Source: Gammaproteobacteria bacterium
GTDB taxonomy: Bacteria; Pseudomonadota; Gammaproteobacteria; SZUA-152
Reading direction: 5' to 3'
Assembly: GCA_029882975.1 (NCBI GenBank)
Contig: JAOUJW010000029.1
Location: forward strand, 1-64,000
Length of the DNA: 64,000 nucleotides
The notes beneath the pieces were generated by a model, which did not search any database, was not told where the DNA came from, and saw nothing but the letters and a program-made list of their open reading frames with translations. Below are positions 13,155-62,795 of this stretch, in pieces; position 1 is the first letter of the stretch; each line of letters starts with the position of its first letter. Position numbers and translations under genes: made by a program.

Positions 13155-13934
13155 ATGCTGGACTCTGAATTAACACCGGTAACGCAATTAACGGAATTCG
13201 ACAAACACCGGTTCTATGATTTGCTGTGCCGATACTTCGCCCAAACCTCGTATGAGCAGTTCACTAAGGATTTGCAGGAAAAACACTGGGTGGTGATTAT
13301 GCGGGATCAACAGCAAGTGATCCGTGGCTTCAGCACCTTAGTGATTATGGATTTTGAGCACAAGGGCAAAAAGAACCAAGCCATTTTCTCCGGTGACACC
13401 ATCATTCATCACAAATTCTGGGGCACCCAGGCCTTACCCTTGATCTGGTGCCGCCTGGCCGGGCAAATCAAACGGAGCCACCCCAGCGTGCCACTGTATT
13501 GGTTCTTGATCGTCAAGGGCTATCGCACCTATCGTTATTTAAAAGTCTTTTCCAAGCAATACTACCCTCACTGGCAATATCCTACGCCGTCGTCAATCCA
13601 AGTCATTATGGATCAACTGGCCCGGAATAAATTTGCTGCGGCATATGACGCGGACAAAGGCATTGTGCGGTTTCCCCAATCGCAGGGACAATTGCACTCG
13701 AGCTGGGCGGACATTCCGGCACATGTACAACACAAACCGGAAATCGCGTTTTTTATGCAGGCCAACCCCCATTACGACAAGGGCGATGAATTGGTTTGCC
13801 TCACAGAGCTGTGCGCAAGCAACTTAAAATCTCATGCCCGGCGAGCCTTTTTGTTGGGCTTAAACGAAGAGCATCCATCTCGGTCAAACCATTCGCCCCC
13901 GGACAAGCGGCAAGCTATTTGTGAAATTGGATAA
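13155..13934 (+). CDS. GNAT-like putative acyltransferase, first gene of the radical SAM operon
   Basis: A 259-residue soluble protein I cannot place with certainty. The order of strands and helices (ITRDQQ-like turn, VIRGFSTLVIMDF, AIFSGDTIIHHKFWG, then helix and LYWFLIVKGYRTYRYLKVF) is that of an acetyl/acyltransferase-like fold, but the classic acyl-CoA P-loop is not evident. Its stop overlaps the start of the first radical SAM gene by 14 bases, which ties it to that pathway. It could transfer an acyl group or act as an accessory protein. Confidence 0.65.
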   Translation: MLDSELTPVTQLTEFDKHRFYDLLCRYFAQTSYEQFTKDLQEKHWVVIMRDQQQVIRGFSTLVIMDFEHKGKKNQAIFSGDTIIHHKFWGTQALPLIWCRLAGQIKRSHPSVPLYWFLIVKGYRTYRYLKVFSKQYYPHWQYPTPSSIQVIMDQLARNKFAAAYDADKGIVRFPQSQGQLHSSWADIPAHVQHKPEIAFFMQANPHYDKGDELVCLTELCASNLKSHARRAFLLGLNEEHPSRSNHSPPDKRQAICEIG

Positions 13935-15279
13935 AATCACCTTTATTCGCCCCAATATGGGCGACTTTCGCGCCACTGACGCCATGGAACCCCTGGTGTT
14001 TGCCATACTGGCAGCACGCACCCCAAAGCATATTCAAATTGCCTTTTACGATGAACGTCTGGAACCTTTACCGCTGAATGAAGCCACGGATTTGGTGGCC
14101 ATTACGGTTGAAACCTTTACCGCTCGCCGGGCCTATCAGATTGCGGATCATTACCGTTCCCAAGGCATAGCCGTGATTATGGGAGGCTACCACCCCACGC
14201 TGCTACCACAGGAATGCGCTCCCCACGCAGACGCACTGGTTTGTGGTGATGCCGAAGGGCTGTGGGAACAAATCATCAGTGATGTGCAAAACAACCGGCT
14301 CAAACCCATGTACCGTCACCATGGTGAGACTCCCATGGACGGTCCCTTACCGGATCGCACACTGTTTCAAAACAAAAAATATGCACCCATCGCCCTGGTA
14401 CAATTCGGCAGAGGTTGTCGCTTTAACTGTGACTTTTGCTCCATCCACGCCTTTTACGGCAAACGTGTGTTTCAGCGGCCCCTGGATCTTTTAGTCGAAG
14501 AAATCCGCTCCTTGAATACCCGTCATGTTTTCTTTGTGGACGACAATCTGTTCTCCAATGTGGAAAAAGCCAGCGCATTTTGTCGCGCCATTATGCCTTT
14601 AAAGATTCGTTGGGTTTGTCAGGTGAGCATTGATGTCGCCCGTCACGAGCCGTTATTGGAGCTCATGCAACAAAGCGGTTGCTTTCTAGCCTTAATCGGA
14701 TTTGAGTCGTTGCAGGAAAAAAACCTCAAACAAATGCACAAAAAATGGAATATCAAGCGCGACTACAGTGATGCCATCAATAAACTGCAACAACACAATA
14801 TAATGGTCTACGGCACATTCATTTTTGGATATGACTATGATGCTCCGGACGCGTTTGACGCCACACTGGACTTTGCCTTAACGCATCGCCTATTCCTTGC
14901 CAATTTTAATCCACTCATGCCCACACCGGGCACAGAACTGTATGAACGCTTGCAACAGGAAGGCCGTTTGCGTTACCCGAACTGGTGGATCGACCCCAAC
15001 TACCGCTACGGTAACGCAATGATTGAACCCAAAAATATGAGCTGCGACGAGTTGAGCCGGGGTTGTTTGCGTATACGTCGTCGTTTTTACGCGACTCATT
15101 CTATTCTCAAGCGCAGCACAAAAATGCCCAGAGCATTTTACAAGCCTTTTAGTTTAGGATTATATTTTCTATCCAACTTTGTCTCCCGCCGCGAAATCAA
15201 TAACAAACAAAATAAAGCCTTGGGAGGGCAAGTTCAGGTCAAACTTCCGGCAGCCGTCAACGGACACCAAAGCCAATGA
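13921..15279 (+). CDS. B12-binding radical SAM enzyme 1
   Basis: A 452-residue enzyme. The N-terminal half is a cobalamin-binding-like Rossmann domain (about 1-140; LVAITVETFTARRAYQIA, IMGGYHPTLLPQE). The radical SAM core starts with the 4Fe-4S motif GCRFNCDFC, Cys166, Cys170 and Cys173, followed by FFVDDN and a C-terminal helical part. Relatives methylate or rearrange unreactive carbons of lipids, tetrapyrroles or natural products. The classic DxHxxG cobalamin motif is not seen, so cobalamin may bind base-off or not at all. The start is GTG 13921, and the gene overlaps both neighbours. A close paralogue follows. Confidence 0.88.
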   Translation: MKLDKITFIRPNMGDFRATDAMEPLVFAILAARTPKHIQIAFYDERLEPLPLNEATDLVAITVETFTARRAYQIADHYRSQGIAVIMGGYHPTLLPQECAPHADALVCGDAEGLWEQIISDVQNNRLKPMYRHHGETPMDGPLPDRTLFQNKKYAPIALVQFGRGCRFNCDFCSIHAFYGKRVFQRPLDLLVEEIRSLNTRHVFFVDDNLFSNVEKASAFCRAIMPLKIRWVCQVSIDVARHEPLLELMQQSGCFLALIGFESLQEKNLKQMHKKWNIKRDYSDAINKLQQHNIMVYGTFIFGYDYDAPDAFDATLDFALTHRLFLANFNPLMPTPGTELYERLQQEGRLRYPNWWIDPNYRYGNAMIEPKNMSCDELSRGCLRIRRRFYATHSILKRSTKMPRAFYKPFSLGLYFLSNFVSRREINNKQNKALGGQVQVKLPAAVNGHQSQ

Positions 15280-16604
15280 AACTAACACTGATTAAACCGA
15301 ATATTGGTCGCATGATAGACGGTCCCTATGTAGACGAAGGCAGGATGGAGCCACTACAACTGGGTGTGCTGGCCGCATTAACACCTGCAGATGTGGAAGT
15401 GGTATTGCATGACGACCGTATGGAAAGGATCCCCTATGATGAACCCACCGATTTAGTCGCCATCACCGTGGAAACCTACACCGCCAAACGCGCGTATGAG
15501 ATTTGTGCCGAATACCGCAAACGCGGCGTTCCTATTATCCTGGGAGGTTTTCAACCCACCTTAATCCCCGAGGAATGTGCACCACACGCGGATTCCCTGT
15601 TTATCGGCGATGCAGAACTGCTCTGGGAAACGGTTATCGAAGATGCCCGTAAAGGTCGACTGAAGCCTCGCTACGAATCCAAGCCCGGCCCGCCTCAACC
15701 GAGAGTCATTACCCGACGAGACATTTTCGAAGGCAAGGGTTACCTTCCCATGACTTTGTTACAATTCAGTCGCGGTTGCCGCTTCACTTGCGACTTCTGC
15801 GCCATCAGCGTGTTCTTTGACAAAACCCAGTACCTGCGTAATATCGATGAAGTGGTACAGGAAATACAAAGTCAAAACCGCAAATTGCTGTTCTTTGTTG
15901 ACGATAATATTTGCTCCAACCATGAAGCCCTGAAACAGCTGTGCCGCGCCCTGATTCCTTTAAAAGTACGCTGGGTCAGTCAGGGCAGCATAGACATGAC
16001 CAAGGACCGCGAGCTAATGCGATTAATGGTTCAAAGTGGCTGCCTGGGTAACGTCATCGGCTTCGAGTCCCTGGATCCGGACAACCTCAAAACCATGAAA
16101 AAGGCACCCAATATAAAACACTTTTCCCGCTACCGGGAGCAAATCCAAATCCTGCGCGATTACGGCTTACAGACCTGGGCCGCATTCACTCTGGGCCATG
16201 ACGGCGACACCCTAAGCTCCATTGAGGATACCCTGGATTTTGCCTTAAGCAATAAATTCACCTTTGCGGCCTTTAACATTCTGGTACCCTACCCCAATAC
16301 CCCACTGTACCGAAAACTGGAATCTGAGAATCGCTTGCTGTATAACGGCAAATGGTGGTTGCACCCGGATTATCGCTTTAATTATGCCACCTTTGAACCC
16401 AAGCATATGAGCCCCGATGAGCTTACCCACGCTTGTCATGACGCTCGCAGCCGATTCAACAGTGTCGGCTCTATTGTTACCAGAGCACTGGATTTTAAAA
16501 CCAATTTGCGCTCCATCTACCGTTTCGGTACTTATTTACAGTTCAATCCTATTTTCCGAAAAGAGGTTTTTAAGAAACACGGTATGCTGTTTGGAGAGTG
16601 CTAG
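15276..16604 (+). CDS. B12-binding radical SAM enzyme 2
   Basis: A 442-residue paralogue of the preceding enzyme with the same plan: a Rossmann-like N-terminus (LVAITVETYTAKRAYEIC, ILGGFQPTLIPEE), the 4Fe-4S motif GCRFTCDFC at Cys168, Cys172 and Cys175, then FFVDDNICSNHEAL. The start ATG overlaps the previous stop (ATGA), indicating translational coupling. The shared MEPL near residue 25 and WWLHPDYR/WWIDPNYR near the C-terminus show a tandem duplication. The pair may carry out two successive radical steps or form a heterodimer. Confidence 0.88.
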   Translation: MKLTLIKPNIGRMIDGPYVDEGRMEPLQLGVLAALTPADVEVVLHDDRMERIPYDEPTDLVAITVETYTAKRAYEICAEYRKRGVPIILGGFQPTLIPEECAPHADSLFIGDAELLWETVIEDARKGRLKPRYESKPGPPQPRVITRRDIFEGKGYLPMTLLQFSRGCRFTCDFCAISVFFDKTQYLRNIDEVVQEIQSQNRKLLFFVDDNICSNHEALKQLCRALIPLKVRWVSQGSIDMTKDRELMRLMVQSGCLGNVIGFESLDPDNLKTMKKAPNIKHFSRYREQIQILRDYGLQTWAAFTLGHDGDTLSSIEDTLDFALSNKFTFAAFNILVPYPNTPLYRKLESENRLLYNGKWWLHPDYRFNYATFEPKHMSPDELTHACHDARSRFNSVGSIVTRALDFKTNLRSIYRFGTYLQFNPIFRKEVFKKHGMLFGEC

Positions 16605-30986: not shown

Positions 30987-31949
30987 ATGACAGAACTGTC
31001 GTTGAATGACGTGGAACTGGAAGAATGGAATATTCGTTCCTGCAAGTCGATCAATCCTAAATTTGACACCCTGTCATTGAATAATGAGGGAAAAAAGGAA
31101 ATTGACACCCACCAGTTAAAGCATCACCTCGCCGGTATAAAAGGTATCAATAATATTAAGTCGCTGGTTCTAGAATACAGTTCTTTGCTTAAAGACCTTT
31201 CCTTTTTGGAGGCACTACCCAAGCTGGAAACACTGGATCTTTATGGTTGGAAGTTGCTCAACTTGGACGGCCTGGAATTTTTCCAAAACGGTCGATATAT
31301 CGCCATCGACACGGGTAAAAACACACGCCGAAAAATAGATAAGATCGCCGCCACCAACATTGGAAAACTCAACTTGCGCTATGCCCACCCGGGTGACTCG
31401 GAAGCCATCCGCCATTGTCACACTCTCAACAGCCTATCCCTGTCAAGCTGTCCGGCGTTATCACTCAAATTATGGAAAAACGTACCGCTCGAATACATGA
31501 GTTTATCCGGTGGAAATATAGACATTCTGAGCAGTACGGCTCACATACCCACACTATCATTCCTACAGATCCATGGCTGTACAAAACTGCAACACCTGAA
31601 AGGGAACAACAGCAACATCACCAGACTGATTATCCAATCCTGCAGTCGACTGGACTTAAGAGACATTAAGAGCTTTAGTAATGTGGAAGCAGTGGATATT
31701 GTCAGCGTCAAAAAACCTATTCCCCTATCAATTTTTTCCAAACTAAGAAAATTAACACATCTGGACCTGCATAATTGCAAAGTCGATCTTGATGTCATGA
31801 GCCTCAAAAAGAAAAACCTGAAAGAAATAGCTATTTACACTTTAAAAAAACCGGAAGGAATCAAACTCAGTCAAGCCAACCCCGACGTGGTTGTTACCAA
31901 CGCCTGTTGGTCGTATAAAAATGGCCTTGCTTATGTGGAACAAGGCTGA
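30987..31949 (+). CDS. Leucine-rich-repeat-like protein
   Basis: A 320-residue cytoplasmic protein made of irregular leucine-rich repeats, visible as LxxLxLxxxxxLxxLxxL phrases (for example IKSLVLEYSSLLKDLSFLEALPKLETLDLYG, about 55-85, and LTHLDLHNCKVDLDVM near 255). No signal peptide or membrane segment is seen. Repeats of this kind form solenoid binding surfaces. It has a lower-GC, lysine-rich coding style compared with its neighbours, which could reflect recent acquisition. It converges with the aldo/keto reductase gene. Confidence 0.7.
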   Translation: MTELSLNDVELEEWNIRSCKSINPKFDTLSLNNEGKKEIDTHQLKHHLAGIKGINNIKSLVLEYSSLLKDLSFLEALPKLETLDLYGWKLLNLDGLEFFQNGRYIAIDTGKNTRRKIDKIAATNIGKLNLRYAHPGDSEAIRHCHTLNSLSLSSCPALSLKLWKNVPLEYMSLSGGNIDILSSTAHIPTLSFLQIHGCTKLQHLKGNNSNITRLIIQSCSRLDLRDIKSFSNVEAVDIVSVKKPIPLSIFSKLRKLTHLDLHNCKVDLDVMSLKKKNLKEIAIYTLKKPEGIKLSQANPDVVVTNACWSYKNGLAYVEQG

Positions 31950-31973: not shown

Positions 31974-32966
31974 CTACAAATCCATGTAATAGGCAATCAT
32001 ACGTTTTCGTGTTTTGGCATCCGGCAAGCCGCCAAATCCGGCTTGCATATTGTCCTGCATGTGATGCACTTTTGTGGTGGCTGGAATAGTACAGCTCACG
32101 GCCGGGTGGGAGATGATAAATTTCAGAAAAAATTGTCCCCAGGATTGACAATCAAACTCTTCGACCCATGGCGGAACACGCTCGCCACGAACTCTGGAAA
32201 ACAGACTGCCGCGTTGGTAAGGACGATTTACGATAACTGCTACACCGCGATCGGCGGCAAGGGGCAACAACCGTTGTTCAACTTCTCTGTCTACTATGTT
32301 GTAACTCAACTGCACGAAGTCAAACGATTCTTTTTGTAAAATAGTTTCCAACTGCGGATGATACCGACCGTGAGAAGTGGTAATTCCAATATAACGGATC
32401 TTACCCTCTTCCTTCATACGCTTTATGGTTTTAAGATGCACGTTCCAATCGCGCAGGTTATGAATTTGCATCAAATCAAATCGTTTCACACCCCAGAGAA
32501 AGCGAGACTGTTCCATTTGCTCTTTGCCTTGTTGTTCCCCGTCGATCCAAACTTTGGTGGCGGAAAAAAACTCCTGCTCCTTCGGTATGAGTTTAAGCAA
32601 GGTACCGACCACTTTTTCCGAGGAACCGTACATAGGTGAGGAGTCAATCAGCGTACCTCCACCTTCAAAAAAGGCCTGCATGACTTTGAGTAAATTATCG
32701 TAACCACTGCGGTCATACCCCATATCATGACCCAAATCAAAGGTACGGGACGTACCCAATCCAATAACGGGTAGTTTCTCACCGCTGGAAGGAATAATCT
32801 TGCGGATAACTGCTGGAGCGGCTTTAGAGTGATTATTGGATTTTCGTCTGGAGGCGGCCCGGGATTGCCCACCTGCCAAAGGCAACATCGACGCTGTTGT
32901 CGCAGCCAGTAACCGTTTTAAAAATAAACGTCGTTGCAATTCAGAGTTTTTGATTTTTCTATTCAT
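31974..32966 (-). CDS. Tat-exported aldo/keto reductase
   Basis: A 330-residue aldo/keto reductase. The N-terminus carries a twin-arginine signal (QRRLFLKRLLAATTASMLPLAGG), so the enzyme is probably exported folded with its NADP(H), or the signal marks a membrane-attached form. The barrel has GTSRTFDLG, IDSSPMYGSS (Asp and catalytic Tyr), SATKVW (Lys), MQIHNLRDW (His) and a C-terminal IPATTKVHHM, so the catalytic tetrad is complete. ATG 32966 has AGGGG upstream. It overlaps the transporter stop by 8 bases and is last in the DUF692 operon. Confidence 0.88.
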   Translation of the reverse strand: MNRKIKNSELQRRLFLKRLLAATTASMLPLAGGQSRAASRRKSNNHSKAAPAVIRKIIPSSGEKLPVIGLGTSRTFDLGHDMGYDRSGYDNLLKVMQAFFEGGGTLIDSSPMYGSSEKVVGTLLKLIPKEQEFFSATKVWIDGEQQGKEQMEQSRFLWGVKRFDLMQIHNLRDWNVHLKTIKRMKEEGKIRYIGITTSHGRYHPQLETILQKESFDFVQLSYNIVDREVEQRLLPLAADRGVAVIVNRPYQRGSLFSRVRGERVPPWVEEFDCQSWGQFFLKFIISHPAVSCTIPATTKVHHMQDNMQAGFGGLPDAKTRKRMIAYYMDL

Positions 32967-34272
32967 GGCAAGCCCCTTTACCCAAAGTCTGCTGTGCAAT
33001 CTCACCTTGGCGCCGCCCCAGTCGATATGCCACTACAGCCCAAACCAAAGCCAGGGGTACTGCCAAAAATGCGATATTCGATAAAGATAAACCGGCACTT
33101 TTCAATCCGGTATAAACCCAGGAACTCACCGCATCACCGCCTCGATAGACGGCAGTATCGATAAAATTTTTTGCCTTGTATTTGGACTCTCGGTCGAGCA
33201 CTACATAGAGCATTTCCCTGGCCGGTCGCATTATAGCATAGTTACCTGCCCGCCTGACGACCTGCACCACTATCAACAAACCCAACTGCGGCATCAAGCC
33301 CAATAGAAACAAACCTGCAGCCAACAGCAAAGGCACTAAAGCCAAGGTCCGGCTTAAACCGAATCGATTAACCAAACGACCGGTGAAAAAAACCTGAAAT
33401 GCTAATGTGAGTCCATTGACCGCCAGATCTATAGCGGCGAACACGGCGGTTCGCTGATCCGAATCACTAAAAGCATCTTTGACTATTTGTGCTTGCTGAA
33501 AATACAAAAAAGTGGACAGTGTGGTATACAACAATATGAGCAAACAAATGCCCAGCAAATAGGGCGACGATAATACCAAACGAATGCCTGCCAGCAGTCC
33601 GCCATGCATAGGTTCTTCGCATTCAAAGCCCGGAGACTGACCTCGGGGCTGAGTTTGCGGCTGATCTTCATACCACCGTATCAGCTTTTTCATACAAAAT
33701 ACGGAAGCCAATAGCAGAACTGCGGATATCAATAATAAATGGGTTTTCCCTAAATGCATCACCAACACACTGGTAATCAAGGGACCACATACCGCACCCA
33801 GGGAACCGCCGGCGGCAATCAACCCAAACAGTCTTTTGCTTTGGGTGTCGCTGTATAAGTCCACCATCAGACTCCAGAACACAGACACCACAAACAAGTT
33901 AAACACACTAACCCAAACAAAAAAGGCTCGCGCCGTCCATACGGGCTCGATACCCAAAAACAACAAGAAGAAGAAAAGTAGAATGTTTAGACAGAAAAAA
34001 TAGTAGGCAACGGGTAGAAGTCGTTTACGTGGAAAACGGGAGCATAGCCAACCAAATAGGGGCACCACTGCCAACATGACCACAAAGGTGGCACTGAACA
34101 ACCACTGCAATTGGTCTACGCCACCTTGCACACCCATTTCGTCGCGAATTGGCCGAATAATGTAATAACTGCAAAGCAGGCAAAAAAAGTACAAAAATGA
34201 CCAAGCCACAGCACGCCGCTCTTGAGGGTGGATACGCGTCAGTTTATCCCATAATTCCAACGCCGTGGTCAT
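32959..34272 (-). CDS. Membrane transporter (NTP/NDP-exchange-like MFS)
   Basis: A 437-residue protein with about twelve membrane segments. It resembles the bacterial MFS members annotated as NTP/NDP exchange (Npt/ADP-ATP translocase-like) transporters, with YYIIRPIRDEMG near residue 37 and the WSLMVDLYSD motif near 155. True plastid/rickettsial translocases are rare outside intracellular bacteria, so the substrate here is unlikely to be ATP. I chose ATG 34272, one base after the stop of the upstream gene. It belongs to the DUF692 operon and may export the product. Confidence 0.85.
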   Translation of the reverse strand: MTTALELWDKLTRIHPQERRAVAWSFLYFFCLLCSYYIIRPIRDEMGVQGGVDQLQWLFSATFVVMLAVVPLFGWLCSRFPRKRLLPVAYYFFCLNILLFFFLLFLGIEPVWTARAFFVWVSVFNLFVVSVFWSLMVDLYSDTQSKRLFGLIAAGGSLGAVCGPLITSVLVMHLGKTHLLLISAVLLLASVFCMKKLIRWYEDQPQTQPRGQSPGFECEEPMHGGLLAGIRLVLSSPYLLGICLLILLYTTLSTFLYFQQAQIVKDAFSDSDQRTAVFAAIDLAVNGLTLAFQVFFTGRLVNRFGLSRTLALVPLLLAAGLFLLGLMPQLGLLIVVQVVRRAGNYAIMRPAREMLYVVLDRESKYKAKNFIDTAVYRGGDAVSSWVYTGLKSAGLSLSNIAFLAVPLALVWAVVAYRLGRRQGEIAQQTLGKGACHE

Positions 34273-34273
34273 G

Positions 34274-34804
34274 TCATGCCCGTATATAGAAACGCCATTC
34301 CTGCGGCTGCTGTTTACGTCGAACCATAAACTGCAATACCGCAGTCTTTCTACCATGTACCCAAGCATCGCCGGCGTAAGTCACCGCACAGCGGCGAGAG
34401 CTGTTTTCGAAACGAACCCGGTTATACTCGCTACGGTTGTATGGATAACCTTTGGTTTTTAAGTGCTCACAAAACCGTTTGGCGTCTTCCTGGTGCCTTC
34501 GGTGAGTATGGGGCCAGTAGCATTCGGCGTACTGATCGAAGAGCGCATAAGCATCCGCCCCAAGCCCTTCTATGGTAAGCGGAATCCATTTAGCCACTTC
34601 TCGCAAACGTTTTCGAATCAGTATAGCGGCTTGAATGTTGAGCTGATCTGCCCGTAGCTGCAACAACATTTTTTGCTCGGATTCCGGCAAGGACCATAAC
34701 GGCAACACAGACAGCGGGTTTTCTACAAATCTTTGACGTAAATCGCGGTCTGACAGTAACACCGCCAAGGCGCCAACTGCACTGTCAGGAGCATCAAGCG
34801 GCAT
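34274..34804 (-). CDS. DUF692-partner protein (SCO6045-like)
   Basis: A 176-residue helical protein whose N-terminal half (LLSDRDLRQRFVENPLSVLP, then LIRKRLREVAKWIPLTIEGLG) resembles the C-terminal domain found in partners of DUF692 oxidases. Such partners bind and present the precursor peptide to the oxidase. The last third is basic and aromatic (FMVRRKQQPQEWRFYI). The gene overlaps the DUF692 gene by 11 bases and is followed by the transporter after one base. The partner role is inferred from position and pattern; the C-terminal part is not recognised. Confidence 0.72.
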   Translation of the reverse strand: MPLDAPDSAVGALAVLLSDRDLRQRFVENPLSVLPLWSLPESEQKMLLQLRADQLNIQAAILIRKRLREVAKWIPLTIEGLGADAYALFDQYAECYWPHTHRRHQEDAKRFCEHLKTKGYPYNRSEYNRVRFENSSRRCAVTYAGDAWVHGRKTAVLQFMVRRKQQPQEWRFYIRA

Positions 34805-35633
34805 CGTTCTGTGTCCATCCCAAGCATTGCTGCAGCTGTAGAATTTCTGTTTGTATTTGATCCGCTGCAGGTATGTTGTTGTCGCGCTCGATTATGATAC
34901 TTTGCACCTGGCAGTACTCCACTACCGTTTGGGTAAATTCATACAATTCCCACTGAATATCTTGGGAGTGGGAATCGTAAAACACACCTTGCTCATTGGC
35001 ATATCCCACAATATGCAATTGTTGAATCACATCCGGGTTGATCTGATGCAACCATTGCCGGACATCAAAATTGTGATTGCGGCTGTTAACATAAGCATTG
35101 GTGACATCCAGAAGTAAACCGCAGCCGGCCTTTTCGCACAAGCGATTGATAAACTCCGGTTCAGTCAGGGTTCCTGGAATATGCAAATGACTGGTGATAT
35201 TTTCTAATATCACCGGCTTATCACATGCCTGGGCCAATTCTTGGGTATGATCCACCATCAACGCCAGTGTGGCTTCGGTGTAGGGAATGGGATTCAGATG
35301 CCCCAAGTCAACGTGTCCACTGCGAGTAAAAGCAATATGCTCACTTACCCATAAAGGGTCCGCTTGTCGGCAGACGTGTACGAATTGTTGCAGATAGGTT
35401 TGATCAAGTGGACCGGGCGTTCCCAACGATAGGCCCAAGCCGTGTAGCATCAGCGGATAGCGCCCTTTTAATAGTTGCAAGGTGTCGGGATCATCAAAAA
35501 AGTGTTCCGCGGTGATTTCCAGGCATTGTATCTCCGCCGGCCGACTCAATATCCATTGCGCTAAGGGACGTCGATATCCCACGCCAATGCATTGGGAAAT
35601 CTTAACCGCGTTTGACTCGTTCACTGTTGTCAA
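34794..35633 (-). CDS. DUF692 multinuclear iron-dependent oxidase
   Basis: A 279-residue TIM-barrel protein of the MbnB/TglH/ChrH family, which uses two or three iron ions to modify cysteines of peptides (oxazolone-thioamide formation, beta-carbon excision and related reactions). All expected ligands are visible: His64 (LMLHGLGLSLG), His99 (SEHIAF), Glu144 (LENITSH), Asp176 and Asn179 (LLDVTNAY), His207 (LHIVGY), Asp220 and His222 (FYDSHS), and Glu249 with Asp251 (IIERDNN). The gene lies 33 bases after a membrane protein with a Cys-rich tail, its probable substrate. Confidence 0.9.
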   Translation of the reverse strand: MTTVNESNAVKISQCIGVGYRRPLAQWILSRPAEIQCLEITAEHFFDDPDTLQLLKGRYPLMLHGLGLSLGTPGPLDQTYLQQFVHVCRQADPLWVSEHIAFTRSGHVDLGHLNPIPYTEATLALMVDHTQELAQACDKPVILENITSHLHIPGTLTEPEFINRLCEKAGCGLLLDVTNAYVNSRNHNFDVRQWLHQINPDVIQQLHIVGYANEQGVFYDSHSQDIQWELYEFTQTVVEYCQVQSIIIERDNNIPAADQIQTEILQLQQCLGWTQNDAA

Positions 35634-35666
35634 TCCGTTACCGCCTCAATAGCTACTATTACCTTT

Positions 35667-36305
35667 TCACCCACAGCCACCGCATCCGCCTCCACCACCG
35701 CAACCGCTGCAGCTACTGCAGCTACTGCAATTACCGCCAAACCAACTGCCGTCTCCGGATTTGGAGGCACGAAAAAACATGAAGATGCCGCCGACACCCA
35801 TCATAAAAAACATAAAATCAAACCTGGACATACCCACCGCACTGGCATCCACATATCGGAGCACACCTATAGCCTCGAAAGCGATAAAACCTAACCACGT
35901 AATGTGGGGATTGCCATCCAACTTTCTACGTACCATAAGTACGGTAACAAACAAAATTATGAACACAAAAAAGTACGACAACAAAAACTCCGGACCACGC
36001 ATATGCCGGACAGCATCACGCACAAACAACACGAACAGGAAACAAACAAACAACCCCACCAACCAAACCACAGAGGGATTGCCACGATTGTCCTCTTCTA
36101 TGGTAAAGTGAGTATTGACCAAAGCCGGTTTCGCGGCCGCATCTGTCTTGTGGTCAGTACCCGGCCCTCCTTCCTTGAGGGCCTTGCCAAATTTAAAATT
36201 TCGATCACAATTACCACAGTTGATGGTTTTATCCGCCGGGGTAGTGCTCGGAAAAACTTGTGAAGTCAGGCAAACCGGACAACGAACTATTGCGGTGTCG
36301 GCCAT
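35667..36305 (-). CDS. Zinc-ribbon membrane protein with Cys/Gly-rich tail
   Basis: A 212-residue protein. The first 40 residues form a zinc ribbon (CPVC ... CGNC). Four membrane segments follow (about 80-100, 108-130, 138-158 and 168-185). The last 23 residues are almost only Gly, Ser and six Cys (NCSSCSSCSGC and CGGCG). That tail resembles those of TIGR04222-type membrane proteins, which often lie beside DUF692 genes. I infer it is the substrate whose cysteines are modified. ATG 36305 with GGAGG upstream is preferred over an ATG at 36320; it overlaps the upstream gene by 19 bases. Confidence 0.82.
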   Translation of the reverse strand: MADTAIVRCPVCLTSQVFPSTTPADKTINCGNCDRNFKFGKALKEGGPGTDHKTDAAAKPALVNTHFTIEEDNRGNPSVVWLVGLFVCFLFVLFVRDAVRHMRGPEFLLSYFFVFIILFVTVLMVRRKLDGNPHITWLGFIAFEAIGVLRYVDASAVGMSRFDFMFFMMGVGGIFMFFRASKSGDGSWFGGNCSSCSSCSGCGGGGGCGGCG

Positions 36306-37018
36306 TGCGCCTCCACCCATGTAATCACGTGATGCAACAAATTGAATAAGTTGCCGTGAATCGCCGGAATTTGATCCTTTGACAAGCGCTCTCCATTGGA
36401 TTTTAGTTCCAATAACCGCTGCAGGATGGAAGCGTCTACGGCAAAGTGCTTTTCAATAATAGCAATACGTTGGGAAAAGTCAGTTGCAAACTCCACTTTT
36501 TCCAAGCGTAAGACTTCGCTGATATCGATAAAAACCGCCGCGTAAGTTTTGCGCAAATAATAAGCATATTGCTGTGGCTTATGACGCAAAAAAATGTAGT
36601 TGTGGACACAGCGCAGGCGCAAATTGCGCAAAGATTGTTCACAAATAAAGCGCAAACGCTCATCCGATATGCTCAATTCTTGAAAAGGATCTGTTCCATA
36701 TAACAACCGATAATTCCGGGCAATACTGCGAAACTTAATCGCAAAAGCTTGAAAACTGCGTTCCATTCCGCGTCGACCAATGATAAACAAGTCCACTTTG
36801 ACCTTGCCATCCAGACAATCCGCAATGGCGCTGTGAGCTTCCGGCGTGGATTCGTTAAGAATTATGAGAAAATTGATATCAGAATGGCCTCGTACCACAT
36901 TGCCACGTACGGCGCTGCCGTACACAATGCAGGAATAGAGATTTCCCCCCAACAAACGCGGTAATTTGTCCGCCAGACGATCCAAAGCCTGTTTATAATC
37001 CACCGGTAGAGTGGGCAT
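36287..37018 (-). CDS. Nucleotidyltransferase-fold protein
   Basis: A 243-residue protein with the minimal nucleotidyltransferase signature: IVYGSAVRGN then GHSDINFLII near residues 30-55, and a third acidic site VDLFII near 76. A helical C-terminal domain follows. Such enzymes transfer AMP or other nucleotides to proteins or small molecules. The start ATG 37018 has GGGAGAG at good spacing. It is the first gene of the minus-strand operon and overlaps the zinc-ribbon protein by 19 bases, which suggests a shared function with the DUF692 system, though it could simply be a neighbour. Confidence 0.82.
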   Translation of the reverse strand: MPTLPVDYKQALDRLADKLPRLLGGNLYSCIVYGSAVRGNVVRGHSDINFLIILNESTPEAHSAIADCLDGKVKVDLFIIGRRGMERSFQAFAIKFRSIARNYRLLYGTDPFQELSISDERLRFICEQSLRNLRLRCVHNYIFLRHKPQQYAYYLRKTYAAVFIDISEVLRLEKVEFATDFSQRIAIIEKHFAVDASILQRLLELKSNGERLSKDQIPAIHGNLFNLLHHVITWVEAQWPTPQ

Positions 37019-37623: not shown

Positions 37624-38076
37624 CTATTCTTGCTTGAGAGTCTGCCAGGTTTCATCGGCGGACTCCATCAAGGGCTTCACCTTGCCTTGCCACTGTTCTC
37701 GACCGTATTGAGAAAAGTACAAGTACAATTTCCCATCGATGATGCTCCAGTTATTGGGATCGGCGCCAATTTTATGGCCATCGGCCAAACCATTGGAACA
37801 ATAGCCACCATACTGAGGTGCATATTGTTCCGGGTTACTTTTAAACATTCTCAGTGCATCCGCATCGACAAAAAGCCAGATGGCACCACCCCATTGAAAC
37901 TGAAATTTCTCAGAACCTTTAAGCGGTTTTTGCTGGGTGAAATAGGCCGTCACATCATACCCGTCAATGGCTATACCGCCTCTGGATTTATGTATGTCCC
38001 GAACTCCATCAGCAGCAATCGCTGCTACGCCATGAAATATGCAGATACTCAATAAACAACGTAGAATCGATTTCAT
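37624..38076 (-). CDS. Exported YHS-domain protein
   Basis: A 150-residue protein with a signal peptide (MKSILRCLLSICIFHGVAAIA). The YHS-like core reads GIAIDGYDVTAYFTQQKPLKG, then FQWGGAIWLFVDADALRMF, QYAPQYGGYC and DGKLYLYF. Related proteins are found in periplasmic metal or heme settings. It lies 43 bases from a glycosyltransferase on the same strand and converges with the small exported protein. The metal or ligand is not known. Confidence 0.87.
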   Translation of the reverse strand: MKSILRCLLSICIFHGVAAIAADGVRDIHKSRGGIAIDGYDVTAYFTQQKPLKGSEKFQFQWGGAIWLFVDADALRMFKSNPEQYAPQYGGYCSNGLADGHKIGADPNNWSIIDGKLYLYFSQYGREQWQGKVKPLMESADETWQTLKQE

Positions 38077-60477: not shown

Positions 60478-60558
60478 CTACGACGATTTCGCCATCCAAA
60501 ACCACCAGACGATTAAGGCGATCAGACCCAACCCTGCGATATTTACTAACACACTCAT
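60478..60558 (-). CDS. 26-residue membrane peptide coupled to copA
   Basis: A short gene missed by length limits. It reads [20 protein letters not shown] followed by WMAKSS, one membrane helix with a Trp-rich edge and a basic end. Its ATG overlaps the copA stop (ATGA), and GGGAGA lies six bases upstream, so it is translated by coupling. Similar N-terminal helices precede the cupredoxin part of some copper proteins; here the cupredoxin is absent. It may help CopA or be a remnant. Confidence 0.7.
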
Positions 60559-62795
60559 GTAGGTTCTCCCGGTTTGAACCAACGCAGGCGGTTGGCATTG
60601 CTGACGACCGTAACGGATGACAAGGCCATGGCCGCCCCCGCGATCATGGGGTTCAACAACAAACCCATCACGGGATACAACACACCGGCAGCGATAGGTA
60701 TACCCAAGGTGTTGTAAACGAAGGCACCAAATAGATTTTGTTTGATATTACGCACGGTGGCTTGCGAAATAGCGATGGCATCCACCACGCCGTGCAAGGA
60801 ACCGCGCATTAAGGTAATGTCGGCGCTTTCAATGGCCACATCGGTTCCCGTGCCAATAGCAAAACCCACATCGGCTCGAGCCAATGCCGGAGCATCGTTG
60901 ATACCGTCTCCCACCATACCCACGATCTGACCACGGCTTTGCAACAGCGCCACCTTATTGGCTTTGTCTTGGGGCAGCACTTCAGCAATGACTTCATCGA
61001 TACCCACTTCTTTGGCCACGGCCTGGGCGGTGACAATATTGTCCCCGGTAAGCAATACCACGTTCAAACCCTGACGATGCATACGTGCTATCGCCGCCCT
61101 GGAATCCTGCTTTATCGGGTCTGCCACACTGATAAGCCCCAGCAACCGCTCCTGTACCGCCAAAAACATGGGAGTCTCTGCCTTTTGCGTCAACTCTTTT
61201 GCCTTTGCATCCAAGGCGTCCAAGCTAATATTAAAACCACTCATAAACTTACGGTTACCCAACATCACCGATTGAGTTCCCACACGCGCCATGACGCCCT
61301 GCCCTGCGATGGCGGTGAAGTCACTGATCCCTTCCAAAGCCAGTTGCCGCTCCTTAGCTGCATTGACGATGGCTTCCGCCAGCGGGTGCTCTGATGCTGT
61401 TTCCAATGCTGCGGCTAAACTCAAAACTTGATCTTCTTTTGCATCTCCCACCGCGAGCACTTGGGTAACACTGGGCTTGCCTTCGGTGACCGTGCCGGTC
61501 TTGTCCAACACAATGGTCGTTAACCGGCCCGCCTGTTGCAGCGCATCTCCATTACGAATCAAGGTACCGAACTCTGCCGCCTTACCAACACCGGCCATAA
61601 TAGAGATCGGCGTCGCCAAACCCAAGGCACAAGGACACGCGATGATCAATACGGTCATAGCTGTGATAATGGCATAAGTCACCGGCTGAGCAACGCCGGA
61701 AAAATTAAACCAAATAAGAAAAGTCAACACGGCAACAATGAGGACACTGGGCACAAACACCGCAGCGACTTTATCCACCAGACGACCAATGGCCGGTTTG
61801 GATGACTGCGCCGTACGTACCATCTCGATAATCTGTGATAAGGCGGTATCTTTACCGATTCGTTTGGCTTGAAATAAAAAACTGCCGGTTTTGTTGATGG
61901 TACCTGCGGAAACCGCATCACCCGCTTGTTTTTGTACCGGTACCGGCTCACCGCTTAACATGGACTCATCCACACTGGAATGTCCGTCAATAACCACACC
62001 ATCCACGGCTATGCGTTCGCCCGGACGCACTCGCAGAGTTTCGTCCAGCCCCACCTCCTCGATAGGCACATCGGTTTCCACACCGTCACGCAACACCCGT
62101 GCGGTTTTGGGTTGCAGACCGATTAGGCGTTTAATTGCCTGTGAGGTTTTACCCCGAGCCCGCATTTCCAAGGCGGAACCGAAATTGATCAAAGCGATGA
62201 TAATGGCAGCCGCTTCAAAGTAGGCATGCTGAGCCGTAGGGGGAACCAACTGGGGAAACGCCAGAATGATCATAGAATAGGCCCAGGCCGTGCCCGTACC
62301 CAGAGCAATCAGCGTATCCATATTGGCGTTGTGATTGCGGGCGGATTTCCAGGCTCCGGTAAAGAAGTGACCACCGGAATACACCAGGACCCCCACCGTT
62401 AACAATCCGACCACCAACCAAAAGCCTCTCCCGGCGAGCGTCTCAAACGTCGGCAGTAAGCCGGACATACCCAATACAAACTGAGGCACACCTAGCACCG
62501 CTGCGGCTGCCGCTTTTTTCAAAAGGCTGCGGTAATAAGCCATTTCCACTGCTTCTTTTTCAGTCTCGTCAGCAGCACTTTTCAATTCTGCGGCATCGTA
62601 GCCGGCGGCTCTGACGGCATCAATAATTGCCTGCACTGCCGCATCGCCCTCTACCATAGCCGTGTGCTCGGCAAAATTGACACTCACGGCCGACACACCT
62701 TGCACCGAACGCATAGCATCCTCTACGGCGGCGACACAGCCGGCACAACTCATGCCGGAAACGGATAATCGTGTAGGGTTGGCTTGTGATGACAT
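60555..62795 (-). CDS. copA: Copper-exporting P1B-type ATPase
   Basis: A 746-residue pump that moves Cu(I) from cytoplasm to periplasm. One N-terminal HMA domain has the metal motif GMSCAGC (near residue 14). The membrane part has CPC ([12 protein letters not shown]), DKTGTVTEG as the phosphorylation site, SEHPLAEAI, and [15 protein letters not shown]. The MxxSS and YN motifs of the P1B-1 class ([21 protein letters not shown]) are present. The ribosome site GAGG precedes the start. An AraC-type regulator with an HMA-like domain lies upstream, and a 26-residue membrane peptide is coupled to its stop. Confidence 0.97.

Follow-up and report, generated by a model that had tools for sequence, protein, structure and literature searches.

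What does a DUF692 iron oxidase modify when no short precursor peptide is encoded beside it? The question is raised by an operon in a 64,000-nucleotide stretch of a gammaproteobacterial genome (contig JAOUJW010000029.1, positions 1 to 64,000; hereafter the window). Its six genes, all on the minus strand, encode in order a protein of the nucleotidyltransferase fold (NT), a membrane protein ending in a Cys/Gly tail (TAIL), the oxidase (MNIO), a short partner, an MFS-type transporter (MFS) and an aldo/keto reductase (AKR) (Table 1). The tight packing described in an initial annotation of this DNA, with overlaps or gaps of at most 33 bases, is borne out by the gaps of -19, +33, -11, +1 and -8 bases from NT to AKR; AKR (31974-32966) lies mostly beyond the left boundary drawn there, 32966 being its start codon. 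No open reading frame (ORF) for a short precursor with a Sec signal (DUF2282, EGKCG or Cys-Lys) was seen in or beside the operon, whose only Cys-rich candidate is the membrane protein tail, as the same annotation had noted. The layout comprises two units, a four-gene core of NT, TAIL, MNIO and partner and a separate MFS/AKR pair. The core is probably a single protein-modification cassette, in which MNIO and its partner would modify the tail cysteines of the membrane protein.

The conservation of the core was assessed by scanning some 85,000 species genomes with MNIO in a pattern-based search. This retrieved 21 related loci (47-64% identity; loci and genomes carry our own L and G numbers), mostly from Planctomycetota and Verrucomicrobiota, with two from Gammaproteobacteria and one from an alphaproteobacterium. 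In 19 of the 20 assessable loci (L036 is without upstream sequence) a gene for a protein with a Cys/Gly/Ser tail lies upstream of MNIO, on the same strand and no more than about 1 kb away. With purpose-built hidden Markov models (HMMs), the partner is found 3' of MNIO in 19/20 loci and NT upstream in 16 of the 19 that could be assessed. These frequencies, across three phyla, favour modification of the tail by MNIO. The search for the same gene order elsewhere, suggested by the initial annotation, thus succeeds for NT-TAIL-MNIO-partner, and NT, regularly present upstream, is not the unusual member it had been taken for. Individual loci vary: in L034 the tail gene is 817 bases from MNIO with a separate ORF in between, three loci (L033, L039, L051) have a tandem pair of tail genes, and L037, L050 and L053 have a broken frame in the tail gene, possibly from draft assembly. 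At L050 (7597-8010) a single in-frame stop stands just ahead of the Cys/Gly tail and could be a sequencing error.

The cassette is rare, conserved mainly in Planctomycetota and Verrucomicrobiota plus a few Proteobacteria. In a sample of 369 genomes from the window's class, a close MNIO is present only in the window's own; the second match in that sample (L054) is a bufferin operon. The phylum of L048 has MNIO matches in 4/294 genomes, three of them at 37-42% identity, and that of L047 in 1/289. At L070, NT, a membrane protein with the motif GPxFL and a Cys/Gly tail, MNIO and partner again occur together. In genome G539 the cassette is split but complete, with MNIO and partner at L071 and, on another contig (L134), NT with a 72-residue Cys/Gly tail protein.

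The assignment of MNIO to its superfamily, and the initial annotation's reading of it as a DUF692 oxidase with the metal-ligand residues, are confirmed by the profile match (Table 1) and by the conserved His, Asp, Glu and Asn: H64, H99, E144, N145, D176, H207, D220, H222 and E249 align with the MbnB, TglH and 3BWW chains. It scores below every NCBIfam equivalog cut-off (77 for the MbnB equivalog, where the cut-off is 325). In a maximum-likelihood tree of 53 rows, the MNIO clade, which includes L070-L072, is separated from the relatives' bufferin-type enzymes with support of 100/99.

The partner matches nothing in Pfam or NCBIfam and so lacks the DUF2063 signature of PME-type 1 proteins. Its AlphaFold2 model (pLDDT 94) has a helical N-terminal domain followed by a three-stranded C-terminal sheet. 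It thus has what marks PME-type 2 proteins, namely no DUF2063 signature, a helical N-terminal domain with a full or partial RRE-like sheet, and a gene that follows MNIO. In a Foldseek search of the PDB, MbnC (7dz9_C) ranked second (E 0.2, TM 0.35), while NGO1945 (3DEE) and TglI (8HI7) fell outside the top 50. A profile search against PDB sequences gave a weak match to LigA/SonA alone (E 0.1), and a search for viral structural relatives gave no significant match.

TAIL has 11 cysteines, six of them in the tail at positions 193, 196, 199, 202, 208 and 211, and matched nothing in Pfam or NCBIfam searches. Its AlphaFold2 model shows N-terminal zinc-ribbon-like strands, helices at 77-100, 104-128, 133-157 and 163-182, and disorder from 185 to 212. 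The best Foldseek matches of the first part are LysW zinc ribbons (probability 0.7-0.9 but E 0.6-1). An alignment of 16 homologues shows conserved F107, E144 and M169 in the membrane part and a final CGGCGG, placing the tail among the best-conserved parts of the protein. This ending is kept nearly everywhere, even where the rest of TAIL diverges or the zinc-ribbon-like part is lost, as in the short Verrucomicrobiota forms. Nor is the tail a chance run of Cys and Gly: when CGGCG-type DNA patterns were matched across the 5.18-Mb host genome and the matching stretches read, none of the other 12 encoded such a tail. The tail is the best candidate substrate of MNIO. The distribution of Lys and Arg in the loops, with 27 in loop 2-3, the most basic, and seven in loop 1-2, places the tail inside and so suggests, if modestly, that it faces the cytoplasm.

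From gene order, domain content and the conservation of both locus and tail we infer how the cassette may work. TAIL would be held in the inner membrane by its four helices, with the putative zinc ribbon and the Cys/Gly tail most likely both cytoplasmic. The partner, with its MbnC- and PME-type 2-like helical domain and small β-sheet, would present the tail to MNIO, which would oxidise some of the cysteines there; by analogy with bufferins and captophorins, groups of the 5-thiooxazole type are the most likely outcome. This chemistry is proposed because related MNIO products are reported to contain Cys-derived 5-thiooxazoles and to bind copper (PMC13097082, PMC12452194). The result would be a tail anchored in the membrane and able to bind metal, most plausibly copper.

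The match of NT to PF01909 is marginal (the cut-off is 21 bits; Table 1) and its motif, GSAVRG...SDIN, has Asn in place of the second catalytic Asp. Across the family alignment SDxN stands where active transferases have DxD, and the helical part keeps invariant residues; the GS motif is itself missing from some Planctomycetota members (L034, L039, L049). The family therefore lacks the GS...DxD of active ANT/MNT-type nucleotidyltransferases and, since DxN replaces DxD, NT may act without ordinary nucleotidyl transfer. In the window's class, homologues were found in no genome but its own. In Planctomycetota 34 of 294 genomes have them, for the most part with no cassette-clade MNIO, so that the idea of an MNIO-specific NT was rejected. 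A plasmid-borne origin was likewise rejected, as 72,556 plasmids contained no match to NT. When 20 of these Planctomycetota loci were read, NT in 15 of them immediately preceded the gene for a protein whose C-terminal tail is rich in Gly. One of these is a 72-residue Cys/Gly tail protein and the other 14 end in tails like GGGGASGRW; the one of the 14 that was checked is a TPM-domain YgcG-like protein with LemA after it. Since many of the 14 appear to be close relatives of one another, independent cases are fewer, perhaps three judging by tail sequence. Such arrangements, NT followed by YgcG/TPM with a Gly-rich tail and LemA, are seen, with no MNIO, in many Planctomycetota genomes (L134-L153, e.g. 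L141:3065-5454). They resemble the cassette in that NT immediately precedes a membrane protein whose C-terminal tail is rich in Gly, but differ in a tail without Cys and in having neither MNIO nor partner. The simplest reading is that NT probably works with the tailed membrane protein and not with the oxidase. More tentatively, the NT family, probably not ordinary enzymes, may serve, more broadly, membrane proteins whose C-terminal tails are long and Gly-rich. One branch, with YgcG/TPM and LemA, would have a plain tail, and in the other a Cys tail would have recruited MNIO and partner, giving a cytoplasmic, metal-binding tail that is anchored in the membrane and modified by oxidation.

Several observations weigh against modification of the TAIL cysteines as proposed. 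No leader of the kind found in ribosomally synthesized and post-translationally modified peptides was identified in TAIL, the fold match between partner and MbnC is weak at E 0.2, and NT also occurs with no MNIO nearby. At L045, MNIO and partner are present and no tail gene was found nearby. The topology signal is modest, since loop 3-4 also carries 19 Lys/Arg, and published models of TIGR04222 proteins place the tail in the periplasm.

The last point touches on the closest described system. An MNIO-modified membrane-protein tail was already proposed in 2025 for TIGR04222 proteins, described there as possible substrates that expose a Cys tail and have a partner of PME-type 2 (PMC12452194). Like TAIL, those in MNIO clusters are polytopic, have a Ser/Gly/Cys C-terminal tail and no Sec signal peptide, and are encoded beside MNIO and a PME-type 2 partner. 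TAIL could then be a TIGR04222 protein that has diverged, and the cassette the Planctomycetota/Verrucomicrobiota version of those clusters, a classification that we consider doubtful and that would leave the mechanism the same. The membrane-helix motif GPxFL and the Cys/Gly tail are shared, and at L072 a sister MNIO lies between a genuine TIGR04222 protein (E 2.6e-20), whose tail is nearly identical, and a partner. Yet nine members of the TAIL family gave no match to the TIGR04222 HMM, even with the threshold relaxed to E 10, and on this ground membership was rejected; the HMM has no match in the host genome and mostly weak ones in related genomes. Comparison with the L072 protein by hhalign aligns the tail only (probability 97.8, a low-complexity match), and NT was not found beside that protein. 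TAIL differs further in its zinc-ribbon-like part, its conserved upstream NT, its host phyla and the predicted cytoplasmic location of its tail. TAIL may belong to the adjamnio-I family in Table 2 of the same paper (122-293 residues, 8-21 Cys, order adjamnio-I - MNIO - PME-type 2), which it fits in gene order, size and number of cysteines. Going by that table's description, membership is plausible; the main text of the paper makes no mention of NT. The initial annotation's 'possible new' system is therefore right only in part. What is new is the association with NT, which is seen again, in the absence of MNIO, beside other membrane proteins that have a Gly-rich tail (YgcG/TPM), together with the predicted cytoplasmic location of the tail; a combination of MNIO with a nucleotidyltransferase was not reported in the literature searched.

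MNIO might instead modify a substrate encoded elsewhere, with the Cys/Gly tail binding metal or anchoring the enzyme unmodified. This is rather improbable. Unmodified Cys-rich tails are able to bind metals, MNIO and partner stand without an adjacent tail gene at L045 and L071, and the host genome also encodes a bufferin precursor (L073, C25:44000-54000). On the other hand, the upstream tail gene is too regularly retained, and the tail itself too well conserved, to fit this easily; the genome of L071 has its NT and Cys/Gly tail pair on another contig; and the host bufferin precursor, a Cys-rich secreted protein of 102 residues, sits in an ordinary bufferin-type operon with its own MNIO and DUF2063-like partner, so that this second MNIO was rejected as part of the cassette system. 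Bufferins and captophorins (DUF2282, EGKCG) resemble the cassette in pairing MNIO and partner with Cys-rich substrates, but they are made from short precursors exported by Sec and have partners of the DUF2063 (PME-type 1) kind, none of which is found at the cassette. The methanobactin pair MbnB-MbnC likewise combines MNIO with a small partner, MbnC being the best MNIO-related fold match; the cassette differs in having no short MbnA-type precursor and in the MbnB equivalog score.

The MFS and AKR genes belong to a different unit. Their homologues adjoin one another in at least nine relatives (G002, G068, G071, G042, G078, G061, G026, G035 and G024) with none of the core genes beside them, while in the related core loci no MFS homologue was found and the sole AKR match (L048) is distant and on the opposite strand. 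It appears, therefore, that the core landed upstream of an existing MFS/AKR pair, or the reverse. The terminator-like hairpin 3' of AKR, whose eight-pair stem (31946-31924) is the longest terminator stem among simple consensus sites in the region, makes a single transcript of all six genes plausible or even likely; good ribosome-binding sites precede TAIL and NT, and an Rfam search found no known RNA element. That the six genes form one pathway, the tail being modified inside, processed or exported via MFS and acted on by the Tat-exported AKR, is very unlikely despite the tight packing, the last junctions of -8 to +1 and the hairpin, given the independent pair, the lack of MFS in related core loci and the poor prospects of a membrane protein as MFS cargo. 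The initial idea of a peptide-modification operon is supported for the core and not for the six genes together.

Table 1. Coordinates of the operon's features in the window
Feature	Position	Strand	Basis
NT, nucleotidyltransferase-fold protein, 243 aa, helical C-terminal part	36287..37018	-	PF01909, 22.3 bits
TAIL, 212-aa membrane protein, proposed MNIO substrate	35667..36305	-	AlphaFold2 model, family alignment
TAIL, N-terminal zinc-ribbon-like part, C9xxC12...C30xxC33	36186..36296	-	sequence
TAIL, disordered Cys/Gly/Ser tail, six Cys, CGGCG end; proposed modification site	35670..35753	-	
MNIO (DUF692, PF05114), iron oxidase	34794..35633	-	PF05114, E 7e-73
Partner, 176 aa, PME-type 2-like	34274..34804	-	AlphaFold2, position 3' of MNIO
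MFS/TLC-type transporter (MFS_1/TLC), outside conserved core	32959..34272	-	Pfam/NCBIfam
AKR, aldo/keto reductase, Tat-like signal RRLFLKRLL, outside core	31974..32966	-	PF00248, E 2.7e-30
Terminator-like hairpin after AKR	31924..31946	-	consensus match only

Elsewhere in the window, a member of the YHS-domain (seleno)protein family (37624-38076) is encoded near the operon on the same strand, past a divergent secreted ORF, and a CopA-like copper-exporting P-type ATPase (60555-62795) lies about 23 kb from the cassette. An adjacent pair of B12-binding radical SAM proteins (13921-16604) and a marine proteobacterial sortase target protein (TIGR03788; 49157-51271) are also present.

MNIO enzymes are known for their action on short peptides, and a folded membrane protein's tail as substrate would, if true, extend their chemistry to membrane proteins. 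With one tail, one MNIO and one partner, the cassette is a small set that makes the question posed by TIGR04222 and adjamnio proteins directly testable. The recurring NT is an extra component, unmentioned in the literature searched, and ties the cassette to the unexplained YgcG/LemA proteins.

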